Position numbers and translations under genes: made by a program. This document shows positions 11,107 to 13,847 of a DNA stretch of 34,237 nucleotides, in pieces; within the stretch, counting starts at the first letter, position 1, and each line of letters opens with the position of its first letter. The notes beneath the pieces were generated by a model. It saw only the letters and a program-made list of their open reading frames with translations. It was not told the DNA's origin and searched no databases. Source of the DNA: Akkermansia muciniphila (lineage in GTDB: Bacteria; Verrucomicrobiota; Verrucomicrobiia; Verrucomicrobiales; Akkermansiaceae); assembly GCA_945873305.1 (NCBI GenBank), contig CAMCCX010000026.1, positions 1 through 34,237 of the forward strand, given 5' to 3'.

Positions 11107-11448
11107 CTAAGGAGAGGCGGAAGCAACGCTGTGACGACTGGAGGCGGTGGCGTCAATCTCTTCGACCACGCCCATGGGAATCGGCCGCAGCGACGAGCCG
11201 TTTTCTTCGATTTGCTTGCGGATGACGAAGCGGTTGAGGAGCTGGTCCATGCGCATTTCGGTGGTGCGGATGTCGAGGCGGCACTGCTCGACGCGGCGGT
11301 CGATGGCGTCGATTTCCCGGCTGATCTGGACTTGGCGGTTTTTGTAAACCGCATGCAACACGCCGCCGCCGGCAGCGATGGCGGCGGCGAGGAAGAGCGC
11401 GAAAAATGTGGACGCGGACGTGCGGGTTTCGTTGCGGCGGCGGTTCAT
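11107..11448 (-). CDS. FtsL-like small bitopic division protein
   Basis: A 113-residue protein with a basic N-terminus (MNRRRNETR), one TM segment (about 15-33) and a predicted coiled coil (about 35-80, rich in R, E, Q and spaced hydrophobics), then a short polar tail. Size, topology and position between rsmH and ftsI match FtsL, which links FtsB/FtsQ to the FtsWI synthase. FtsL sequences diverge strongly, so the name rests on synteny and architecture. The ATG overlaps the rsmH stop (ATGA, 11445-11448). Confidence 0.82.
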   Translation of the reverse strand: MNRRRNETRTSASTFFALFLAAAIAAGGGVLHAVYKNRQVQISREIDAIDRRVEQCRLDIRTTEMRMDQLLNRFVIRKQIEENGSSLRPIPMGVVEEIDATASSRHSVASASP

Positions 11449-13001
11449 GGCTTGAGGTCTAAAAGCTGGGCAACCCGCAGTTTTGCACTGCGGGCTCGCG
11501 GGTTCAGGGATGTTTCCTCGGCGGTGGGAATGATGGCCTTGCGGGCAAGGAGCCGGAATTGGTAGTCCGGATTCGGCCGGGGTTCGGGCCAGCCAGGCTC
11601 ATCGAGAAATTCAGTGGAGCGGTGTTTTAAAAACCGTTTCACCATCCGGTCTTCGAGACTGTGGAAGGTGATGATCAGCAAGCGCCCCCCGGGTTTGAGG
11701 ACGGCGGGCGCGGCGGCGAGGGCGGTGGCAAGTGATTCGAGCTCTTCGTTCACCGCCATCCGGATGGCTTGGAAGGTCTTGGTCGCGGGATGCGTCCGGC
11801 CTTGGCGGCCGATGGCTTTCTCGATGCAGTTGGCGAGGTCGAGCGTGGTGACGAACGGCTTCTCGGCGCGATGGCGGACGATCGCTCCGGCGATCCGACG
11901 GGCTTTGGATTCCTCGCCGTATTCGAAAAGGATCCGGACGATGTCGGCTTCCGGCCAGCGGTTCACGATGTCCGCCGCGGTGCGCGGGCTGGACGGCCCC
12001 ATCCGCATGTCGAGCGGGCCCTCGCGCATGAACGAAAAACCCCGCGCCGCGGAGTCGAGCTGGCGGGAAGAGACCCCGAGATCCATCAGCAGGCCGTCGG
12101 CCCGTTCCCCCATCTGGATCTCGGGGATTTCCGGGAGTCGCGAGAAGTTTCCTTCCCACGTGGAAAAGCGTTCGCCGAAGGGTGCGAGCCGGGCGCGGGC
12201 GTGGGCCAGCGCCTCCGGATCGCGATCAACGCCGAGCACGCGGGCTCCGGCTTTGAGAAAAATCTCGCTGTGGCCGCCACCGCCGAGCGTGCCGTCGATG
12301 ATGAATTGATCCGGTCCCGGAGCCATCCACTCGGCGACCTCGGCCGGGAAAACCGGGAGGTGGTAGTCGCCGGCGGCCAGCGTTTCTGAAAAATCGACGG
12401 GGGCCTGCGCTGACAACCAGCCAGGAGCAGCGCAGGCATCCGTTTGATCGACAAGACCGCGTGCTGTCCCGAGCCCGCCGTCTTGCACTGAAAGAAAATT
12501 TGACGATGGCCGCGCTGACAACCAGCCAGGAGCAGCGCGGACCATCGATTCAAAAAGCGAGAAAAACTCTGTCCCGAGAGGTTTCCGACGCCCAGCCATG
12601 AAAGTCACCAGACGCCGCACCGACAACCAGCCAGGAGCGGTGCAGACGTCCGTTTGAAGGGCAAAACCGCGTGCTGTCCCGAGCGCGCCGTTTTGCCGTG
12701 AGAAGAAAATTTGCGACGGCCGCGCTGACAACCAGCCAGGAGCAGCGCGGACCATCGATTCAAAAAGCGCGAGAAGCTCTGTCCCGAGAGACTTCGCGCG
12801 CCCAGCCATGAAAATCAGCGGATGCCGCGCCGACAACCAGCCAGGAGCGGTGCGGACATCCGTTTGCATCGACGAGGCGGCGTGCTGTTCCGAGCCAGCC
12901 GATTCGTCTGAAAAGAGTCCCAATCCTGACACGCGGGCGAAAGCGACCGGAGCCGCAGGGCGGACCGCCTCGAGTGTCAGAATTGGTGGGGTGAACAACA
13001 T
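11445..13001 (-). CDS. rsmH: 16S rRNA (cytosine1402-N4)-methyltransferase RsmH with repeat-made N-terminal extension (start uncertain)
   Basis: RsmH (MraW) methylates C1402 of 16S rRNA using SAM. The catalytic part starts near 12368 (DYHLPVFPAEV) and has the usual ~306 residues: SAM loop IDGTLGGGGHS, then GLLMDLGVSSRQLD, ARGFSFMREGPLDMRM and FHSLEDRMVKRF. The open frame continues 212 residues upstream to an ATG at 13001, through five 35-residue repeats sharing APGWLS. These come from the 105-bp structured DNA repeats described separately. Known RsmH proteins start close to the HxPV motif, so the extension is unusual. The ATG at 13001 lacks a ribosome site. A TTG at 12416, in the loop of repeat copy 1, is the nearest alternative and would give a normal-length enzyme. 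Function is certain; the true start is not. Confidence 0.9.
   Translation of the reverse strand: MLFTPPILTLEAVRPAAPVAFARVSGLGLFSDESAGSEQHAASSMQTDVRTAPGWLSARHPLIFMAGRAKSLGTELLALFESMVRAAPGWLSARPSQIFFSRQNGALGTARGFALQTDVCTAPGWLSVRRLVTFMAGRRKPLGTEFFSLFESMVRAAPGWLSARPSSNFLSVQDGGLGTARGLVDQTDACAAPGWLSAQAPVDFSETLAAGDYHLPVFPAEVAEWMAPGPDQFIIDGTLGGGGHSEIFLKAGARVLGVDRDPEALAHARARLAPFGERFSTWEGNFSRLPEIPEIQMGERADGLLMDLGVSSRQLDSAARGFSFMREGPLDMRMGPSSPRTAADIVNRWPEADIVRILFEYGEESKARRIAGAIVRHRAEKPFVTTLDLANCIEKAIGRQGRTHPATKTFQAIRMAVNEELESLATALAAAPAVLKPGGRLLIITFHSLEDRMVKRFLKHRSTEFLDEPGWPEPRPNPDYQFRLLARKAIIPTAEETSLNPRARSAKLRVAQLLDLKP
12403..12908. repeat. Five tandem 105-bp structured units with covarying hairpins
   Basis: The 15-mer ACAACCAGCCAGGAG (plus strand) occurs at 12413, 12518, 12623, 12728 and 12833, exactly 105 bp apart. 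Each copy is flanked by arms that pair: for example GCCTGCGCTG/CAGCGCAGGC (copy 1), CCGCGCTG/CAGCGCGG (copies 2, 4), GCACCG/CGGTGC (copy 3). Copies 2-5 add a one-base A bulge and an outer stem (CGATGG/CCATCG in copy 2, CGGATG/CATCCG in copy 5). The arms differ between copies yet mostly stay complementary. A second hairpin lies in each unit around CTGTCCCGAG, with covarying arms in units 1 and 3 (CAAGAC/GTCTTG, GGCAAAAC/GTTTTGCC). Units alternate between two types, suggesting a 210-bp higher-order repeat. The 105-bp length is 35 codons, so the rsmH frame is kept. Confidence 0.92.
12920..12986. repeat. Long inverted repeat at the mraZ-proximal end of the repeat array
   Basis: Arms CCAATCCTGACAC (12920-12932) and GTGTCAGAATTGG (12974-12986) pair over 13 bp with one mismatch, which becomes G-U in minus-strand RNA. 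They enclose a 41-nt GC-rich interior containing GGCGGACCGCC. It lies just inside the possible rsmH ATG (13001) and next to repeat unit 5. It may be a degenerate sixth unit, since the interior shares GGAGC..GCGGAC with the repeats. Confidence 0.6.
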
Positions 13002-13040
13002 TGCTGCTGCTGGGTGTGTGGTGGGTGAGAGTTGGGAAAA

Positions 13041-13493
13041 TCAGAGGATTCCGAGGTCGTCGTCCTCGTCCGGGTTCATCTCGATTTCGAGCACGCGGGC
13101 GTGGTTCGGCTTGCTCCAGACTTCGAAGTGCAGGCCGCGTCCCGCGAGCACCACTTCGGCCTCGGCCGCGATTCCGGCGGCCTCGCTGAGATCCTTGGGG
13201 ACGAGCAGCTTGCCTTGGTCATTCACGCTCGCCACGCGGCAGAGCATCGAGAGTTGGCCGAGCTTGGCGGTTTTCTTCGCAGGAGTGAGATCGCTGTTTT
13301 TTACGGTCTCCACGCGCTCGTTGAAAGCTTGTTGGCTGAGCACCTTGATCACCGGCATGTCGTGCGTCTTGGAGAACAGCAAAAACAGCACCTCGCCAGC
13401 CGCCGGACGCCACGCTGTCGGGATGGAAACCCGAAACTTCGGGTCCATCTTGTAGGGCGTGTAACCCATGTAGCTTTGTTCGGCGGCGTTCAC
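13041..13493 (-). CDS. mraZ: Transcriptional regulator MraZ
   Basis: MraZ is the AbrB-like DNA-binding regulator that opens most dcw clusters and usually represses its own operon. The protein (150 residues) has two tandem SpoVT/AbrB-type halves: KMDPKFRVSIPTAWR in the first and VNDQGKLLVPKDL in the second, followed by an acidic tail (EMNPDEDDDLGIL). The frame starts at a GTG (13493). The ATG at 13469 (MGYTPYKMDPKF) fits the family N-terminus better and may be the real start; neither has a clear ribosome site. Possible operator repeats lie 35-51 bp upstream of the GTG. Confidence 0.92.
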   Translation of the reverse strand: MNAAEQSYMGYTPYKMDPKFRVSIPTAWRPAAGEVLFLLFSKTHDMPVIKVLSQQAFNERVETVKNSDLTPAKKTAKLGQLSMLCRVASVNDQGKLLVPKDLSEAAGIAAEAEVVLAGRGLHFEVWSKPNHARVLEIEMNPDEDDDLGIL

Positions 13494-13847
13494 TGGAAGG
13501 GGCTGACTGGCGTGTCAGTGCCGGAAAATACACTCAGATACACTGAACCAGCAAGATTAATTTGAGACATTTTTACTAAATTCTTAATACATTCATTTCC
13601 AATGATTTAAAATCAACCTGAAATTGAATTCCAGCAAATTTCAAGCTTGGAACGGCTGGCTAGCGGCCGAATTTTGAACGGAATTGTTTAAAATTTCGTC
13701 CGGAATCCGGGATTTTTTAAATTATCCAGGACCAAGTGTACGAAAGAACCGGTTTTTTAACGAAAGTATACCAGCGCGCTTGAAAACGGCATCCCCGCTC
13801 AGGAATCCCCCTTGTCTTTAATTCGGGAATATTAGAAGCCTTGACCC
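13494..13847. other. AT-rich divergent intergenic region (dcw promoter region)
   Basis: About 350 bp, markedly AT-richer than the rest of the window, between the mraZ start (leftward) and the TPM-protein start (rightward). It must hold promoters for both. Apart from the AGTGTAT repeats, no -35/-10 pair is convincing. A weak TTGCTG-16-TGTATT pair on the minus strand overlaps the repeats, as expected if MraZ represses by blocking polymerase. A hairpin around CCGGAATCCGG near 13700 lies between A- and T-rich flanks. Confidence 0.6.
13528..13544 (-). promoter_or_regulatory. Possible MraZ operator: two direct repeats AGTGTAT, 10-bp period
   Basis: On the minus strand AGTGTAT occurs twice, 10 bp apart, 35-51 bp before the mraZ GTG. 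Known MraZ operators are short direct repeats with a 10-bp period just upstream of mraZ (TGGGN in E. coli, AAAGTG-type in Mycoplasma). Position and period fit; the exact word is different, so this is inference. Confidence 0.5.

Follow-up and report, generated by a model that had tools for sequence, protein, structure and literature searches.

RNA structures have been described in and around the division and cell-wall (dcw) gene clusters of other bacteria. The mraW RNA motif of Actinomycetales (RF01746) is a candidate cis-regulatory RNA named for mraW, that is, rsmH (Weinberg 2010, PMC2864571), and a long 5' leader of the dcw transcript in Rhodobacter sphaeroides, the source of UpsM, is also structured (PMC5089854). 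Here we report an array of tandem hairpins from Akkermansia muciniphila. It lies in a window of 34,237 nucleotides (nt), the whole stretch of DNA that was analysed (contig CAMCCX010000026.1, assembly GCA_945873305.1), between mraZ and the RsmH domain. Covariation exceeds controls in both hairpin types of the array, which is the mark of a cis-acting structured RNA. With a probability of roughly 55%, we read it as a structured-RNA array acting in cis from within the translated 5' part of rsmH, putatively bound by a factor and tuning the expression of rsmH or of its operon.

Architecture and covariation of the array

The array consists of five units of 105 base pairs (bp) arranged within a 210-bp higher-order repeat. 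Read in the mRNA sense, every unit carries a hairpin A, in which an outer stem of 6 bp is joined through a single extra base to an inner stem of 8 bp that carries the loop CUCCUGGCUGGUUGU. An earlier note on this DNA had reported five identical 15-nt loops at an exact 105-bp period, and this is the case: the loop with one base on each side (GACAACCAGCCAGGAGC) is found on the plus strand at 12412, 12517, 12622, 12727 and 12832. Matches to R1, a covariance model of hairpin A built from the 36 best-fitting units, place the hairpins on the minus strand at 12397–12445 (the unit closest to the RsmH domain), 12502–12550, 12607–12655, 12712–12760 and 12817–12865 (the unit closest to mraZ).

Hairpin B alternates with hairpin A and has an 8-nt loop, UCGGGACA, often with UGGCUGGG before it. 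It occurs in two forms, and their alternation gives rise to the 210-bp repeat. In form 1, the hairpin is preceded by the linker UUUCAUGGCUGGGCG, the last bases of which join the B stem. The two copies of this form in the window (12549–12606 and 12759–12816, minus strand) are defined by covariation and by matches to R2, a covariance model of the linker and hairpin B. Two copies of form 2 with the loop UCGGGACA are located at 12448–12489 and 12658–12699 of the same strand, as delineated by alignment and covariation. The B copy closest to mraZ (12871–12908, minus strand; assigned from its sequence and predicted fold) has a diverged loop, UCGGAACA. The loop and linker motifs UGGCUGG and GGGAC are nearly invariant across relatives. 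The GGGAC loops of hairpin B include the trinucleotide GGA, which A loops do not have.

The paired stem changes that the earlier note had seen among the five copies hold across species. In 50 diverse units of hairpin A, 86.1% of the pairs are standard, all 14 paired positions display double changes, and the covariation score is 0.518, compared to 0.085–0.139 in controls with slid arms. A set of 36 units, which leaves out the longer-loop form of the hairpin and the poorly fitting or off-register units, is 85.3% paired, shows double changes in 13 of 14 pairs and scores 0.464, i.e. lower than the full set. The second hairpin, also claimed in the note to covary, does so in both of its forms. All 43 diverse linker-B units (out of 71 distinct ones) are 81.4% paired, with double changes in 11 of 13 pairs and a score of 0.476 (at most 0.270 in slid controls). 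For form 2, the full set of 70 diverse units, which includes form-1 and spurious rows, is 71.0% paired and scores 0.521 (at most 0.289 in slid controls), while 40 units selected from it are 81.3% paired and score 0.593; double changes are present in 12 of 12 pairs in both sets. None of 500 shuffles reached the covariation scores of form 2 or linker-B. The number of double changes was reached in 10 shuffles of 500 for the 40 form-2 units, in 72 of 500 for the set of 70 and in 3 of 500 for linker-B. The alignments sample many species, but their cells are not independent events, and the scores ignore kinship. The idea that selection acts on nucleic-acid structure is nevertheless strongly supported by this comparison of sequences.

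Strand preference

The earlier note found no clear strand preference in the mismatches of the five copies, and the larger sample corrects this. Across the 14 fixed pairs of hairpin A in 146 units from 58 loci, there are 116 G-T and 31 A-C mismatch cells on the mRNA strand (195 units were available, and 49 were dropped for their length or for having fewer than five Watson-Crick inner pairs). Counted by locus, G-T is in excess in 42, the opposite is true for 2, and 14 are ties; the background at slid positions is 813:559. A separate count gives 105 G-T and 39 A-C in 139 units that had been picked out by a GW motif in frame, so that GG and TGG are invariant in them by construction. The predicted folds contain 252 G-U pairs on the mRNA strand versus 54 on the other strand for hairpin A (including pairs within the loop) and 288 versus 170 for hairpin B. 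The excess of G-U over A-C favours an RNA of the coding strand and disfavours an array of DNA sites for a protein, which was another option raised in the note.

The reading frame through the array

The frame fused to the RsmH domain is kept open through the array. It contains 4 stops in 10,505 codons (in two intervals, L015 and L131), versus 163 and 147 stops in the other two frames (10,443 codons each). These counts are for 62 distinct array intervals from 81 loci (L053 was dropped because it contains N, and the rest are duplicates), a set without the third genus described below and without loci whose contig lacks mraZ. Hairpin motifs do not account for this openness, because the spacers alone behave in the same way (4 stops in 4,699 codons in the fused frame versus 115 in 4,634 and 127 in 4,421 in the others). 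The spacing between loops is divisible by three in 152 of 160 cases, and the distance from the mraZ stop codon to the RsmH domain modulo 3 is spread evenly (22, 19 and 21). Of the 62 intervals, 60 have an in-frame ATG no more than 90 nt from the mraZ stop and 41 share a start motif, and in 51 the stretch from the last loop to the RsmH domain is devoid of ATG.

In the window, the rsmH open reading frame (ORF) spans 11445–13001 of the minus strand, including the stop codon, and encodes 518 residues. The leader and the array account for residues ~1–211, and the RsmH domain begins at ~213 (the match to PF01795 covers residues 214–512 with 343.1 bits, cut-off 27; TIGR00006 matches with 312.4 bits, cut-off 154.3). 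Comparison of loci identifies the ATG at 12999–13001 (minus strand) as the first codon of a recurring MLFTPP peptide; no Shine-Dalgarno-like 4-mer is present upstream of it. The rsmH ORFs of 20 loci are 417–622 codons long. Most simply, RsmH would be made with an N-terminal extension of ~100–300 residues. The open frame argues against an untranslated leader. Thus, of the multi-hairpin leader RNA proposed in the note, the RNA is favoured by the G-U excess and the leader is not, the simplest view being that ribosomes translate through the array.

The encoded peptide

Codon positions evolve at nearly equal rates in the array. In 23 species pairs, which were picked by the analyst for comparable arrays, the per-site differences at the first, second and third codon positions are 0.142, 0.140 and 0.173 in spacers, 0.064, 0.054 and 0.072 in hairpin A, and 0.100, 0.118 and 0.127 in hairpin B, versus 0.082, 0.060 and 0.346 in the RsmH domain. 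The ratio of nonsynonymous to synonymous rates (dN/dS) is 0.27–1.15 in the array and 0.03–0.12 in RsmH (0.36 in one pair). In all 23 pairs, dS of the array is below that of RsmH, i.e. synonymous change is suppressed in the array. The 7-mer UGGCUGG, present in 68 of 69 intervals, is read as ..GGC TGG 209 times, as ..TG GCT GG 82 times and in the third frame once.

The extension has no Pfam domain above the cut-off (the best match is DUF2582, 18.7 bits versus 24.2). An AlphaFold model of residues 1–211, made from a shallow alignment of 21 sequences, has a predicted confidence (pLDDT) of about 24 and no secondary structure, so the extension is predicted to be unfolded. The note had allowed that relatives might show ordinary RsmH coding sequence here. 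The region is indeed coding and in frame, but its changes are hardly biased towards synonymous ones and paired substitutions are abundant. Judged by these patterns, the array is an RNA element in sequence that appears to be translated and nearly indifferent to its amino acids.

Distribution of the array

In its own genome, the array is the only place where R1 matches (five times), and there are no dispersed copies of the kind seen in RPE/REP-type elements. The 17-base pattern of the A loop, with up to two mismatches, likewise has five matches in this assembly, all of them within the array. Relatives were searched with covariance models of the units, as the earlier note suggested. R1 matches 71 of 73 genomes of the window's genus (g1) and all 48 of good quality, which makes an assembly artefact very unlikely. 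A sample of 195 genomes of the family, searched with stricter filters that lose weak matches, gives 55 positives: 44 of 44 in the same genus, 11 of 18 in a second genus (g7) and none in the other 14 genera. Five of the seven g7 genomes missed by R1 have the longer-loop form of hairpin A (L132, L133, L135, L136 and L140). Among 288 genomes of the order, R2 matches of at least 29 bits are confined to these two genera and a third, g11 (7 genomes). R2 matches of 20–27 bits, found in other genera and occasionally in these three, were regarded as weak or due to chance. Records with the array that carry names are Luteolibacter pohnpeiensis and many metagenome-assembled genomes of Akkermansiaceae or Verrucomicrobia.

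In six g11 genomes (L152–L157), hairpin A is absent and there are two copies of the linker and hairpin B with the loop AAGGGACG, of which the proximal one adjoins the RsmH domain. All six proximal elements start with an in-frame AUG ~39 nt ahead of the domain. The corresponding linker codon in g1 and g7 (67 linkers) is CTG in 44, ATG in 15, TTG in 7 and in another frame in 1; being mostly CTG, it is not kept as a start there. The AUG of the g11 elements suggests that the element may have arisen at the translation start of rsmH and then multiplied in frame. In L153, L154, L155 and L156, the two copies are 135–156 nt apart, identical or nearly so within a species and different between species. 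Concerted evolution thus seems likely, and the arms of one copy could also pair with those of the other.

At all 61 loci that show both genes (some genomes are included twice), as well as at further both-gene loci, the array occupies the interval from mraZ to rsmH and has the same orientation, and wherever the neighbouring genes are readable it is confined to this junction. The number of A loops per interval varies from 1 to 7. RsmH or MraZ is encoded at 42 of the 65 genome-contig loci that match the 17-mer, and the other 23 lack both; by our own arithmetic, 257 Gb should contain ~30 chance matches to a pattern of this length. A phage collection contains no match to the array pattern, and two single matches in IMG/VR (L035 and L036), with no mraZ or rsmH on the locus, look like chance. 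A different N-terminal extension of RsmH, ~190–220 residues long, is found in another genus (g3, L158–L162), where the frame is open and the hairpin array is absent; it looks like a real protein domain.

Gene neighbourhood

The minus strand of the window carries the usual head of the dcw cluster, consisting of mraZ, rsmH, a small ORF, a penicillin-binding protein gene and murE, so the array is inside the main cell-division operon, as the note had it. The mraZ gene (13041–13493, minus strand), upstream of rsmH, is identified by domain and NCBIfam-type profile matches. The small ORF downstream of rsmH has no NCBIfam match and presumably occupies the ftsL position, judging by the usual gene order. 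In Verrucomicrobium spinosum, mraW is reported to be non-essential.

Just upstream of mraZ, at 13528–13543 of the minus strand, there is a direct repeat, GTGTATCTGAGTGTAT, containing a pair of AGTGTAT motifs with a period of ~10 bp (one match versus 0.01 expected). By its resemblance to the MraZ-box consensus, it is a candidate MraZ box. The repeat is unrelated in sequence to the hairpins and is a better candidate for this role than the array.

Discussion

With two hairpin types kept by compensatory change, conserved loops, an open frame under selection, tolerance of amino-acid change and a single genomic location, the array might work as follows. The displayed loops and the linker would be sites for a putative RNA-binding factor. 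A translating ribosome must unfold the hairpins, so factor binding would compete with ribosome traffic. The array would then tune the translation or stability of rsmH, and perhaps of the downstream division genes. More tentatively, it could belong to a class of RNA elements that must be translated to work. In such an element, a modular array of hairpins, an open frame would be the only coding requirement, and ribosomes would periodically melt the sites that bind protein or RNA, which would allow the cell to read the traffic over rsmH, the gene of a ribosome-modifying enzyme close to the head of the division operon.

Several observations weigh against a regulatory RNA in translated sequence. 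Translation should keep the hairpins partly melted, so they could act as RNA only where ribosome traffic leaves gaps. As the A-loop number can be as low as one, a large number of sites is not required at every locus. Hairpin B shows a weaker strand preference than hairpin A, the predicted fold of the whole region on the mRNA strand pairs arms from different units, and in the window the folding z-score is stronger on the antisense strand (−6.28) than on the mRNA strand (−3.97). In 22 of the 23 pairs, the array has a dN/dS ratio below 1, so a weak amino-acid constraint is possible. Of 60 gaps in the nucleotide alignments of these pairs, 31 are not multiples of three, which speaks against strict indel-by-indel keeping of the frame and fits either alignment noise or compensated frameshifts. 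Finally, an in-frame ATG, GTG or TTG is present past the last loop in 58 of the 62 intervals (usually the TTG that belongs to the loop), so RsmH could also start internally.

Instead of acting in place, the array could be cut from the mRNA as a small RNA that, like CsrB, sequesters a protein in trans. Its several hairpins with near-identical loops are indeed a feature of CsrB/RsmX-type sponge RNAs, and UpsM of Rhodobacter is a small RNA that comes from a dcw leader (PMC5089854). A pure sponge would have no need of the open frame that is selected here, and CsrA (PF02599) is found in none of 59 relatives, including 42 good genomes (some genomes are incomplete; 3 of 14 controls are positive), so CsrA-type regulation was rejected for the genomes searched. 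The A loop also lacks a near-full antisense partner in its own genome (no reverse matches with up to two mismatches). Overall, we regard a sponge as rather unlikely. A little less likely again are duplex or cruciform DNA sites for a protein, such as a regulator or a chromosome-organising factor. The array is tandem and bound to one locus, its period of 105 bp is about ten helical turns, and both strands fold well. However, spacings of 102, 108, 111 and 117 bp break the helical phase, the G-T excess on the mRNA strand is unexpected if the strands are equal, and the AGTGTAT pair, by its resemblance the better MraZ-box candidate, is unrelated to the array in sequence. Mimicry of or pairing with 16S rRNA was considered and dropped. 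Matches in the same sense are at most 8 nt for the A loop (CCTGGCTG) and 10 nt for the g11 loop and stem (AAGGGACGGC). The longest antisense match also measures 8 nt (CTCGGGAC) and occurs in one genome of two. Given how many words were tried, these lengths were judged to be close to chance. The 10-mer AAGGGACGGC is common to the g11 B element and the 16S rRNA of the window's genus (L172 and L173), which is probably a coincidence.

The remaining explanations are improbable. If the 35-residue repeats were a functional unit of RsmH and the hairpins incidental, the open frame, the prevalence of dN/dS below 1, the consensus peptide motifs APGWLS and LGT and the few invariant columns of the extension would be explained. 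The near-flat codon-position rates, the suppressed synonymous change, the reading of the same 7-mer in two frames and the lack of a Pfam domain or of a predicted fold (in the 21-sequence model) would not. Slightly more improbable is a selfish palindrome or minisatellite that template switching would keep palindromic and unequal recombination would spread. The tandem units with a 210-bp period and the variable copy number are in line with the selfish element that the earlier note had listed, but the array occupies one locus, its loops are conserved between genera, its G-U pairs are biased to one strand and its frame is kept open. A ribosome-pausing or translational-bypass element at the start of rsmH seems the least probable of all. 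It would account for hairpins in an open frame with a nearly neutral peptide, but it leaves the conserved loops unexplained, and a bypassed sequence need not be free of stops.

If the array is the regulatory RNA proposed here, it is a large and clean case in which both RNA structure and an open frame are selected while the peptide is nearly ignored, and this at a single place in the core operon of an entire bacterial lineage. Akkermansiaceae should then have an RNA-binding factor that recognises it, and the gene of a 16S rRNA methyltransferase should be linked to the control of division genes. It is also a warning that an RsmH with an N-terminal repeat region of 100–300 residues is not in itself evidence for a protein domain.

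Comparison with known systems

At the gathering score, none of the 4227 families of Rfam 15 matches the window. Up to an E-value of 10, positions 12300–13600 give two sub-threshold matches, mir-2518 and isrG, and RF01746 is not among them. No description of the array is found among the matches listed in the open literature on rsmH, mraZ or the dcw cluster, on Verrucomicrobia or Luteolibacter and on in-frame palindromes (subscription papers were outside the scope). Rickettsia palindromic elements are palindromes inserted in frame inside proteins, but they are dispersed through many genes, whereas the array is found at one locus.

The pan motif (PMC2864571) is a stem with two bulged A residues that occurs mostly in tandem and has been suggested to bind a dimeric protein. 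It resembles the array in its simple tandem hairpins, in having unpaired bases that are conserved and in the possibility that a protein binds it, but it is located upstream of pantothenate genes, and the array matches no Rfam model. In Nematomorpha mitochondria, hairpin-forming inverted repeats also lie within translated sequence. According to PMC6649704, amino acids are under strong selection there, which is the opposite of the array with its nearly unconstrained amino acids and conserved loops. The mraW motif belongs to another phylum and its model finds nothing here, while the array repeats two hairpins in tandem within an open frame. Like the array, UpsM is a case of RNA structure in a transcript of the dcw cluster. 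However, according to PMC5089854, UpsM derives from the cluster's 5' untranslated region and has a terminator at its end, whereas the array resides at the mraZ–rsmH junction, in a reading frame that selection keeps open.
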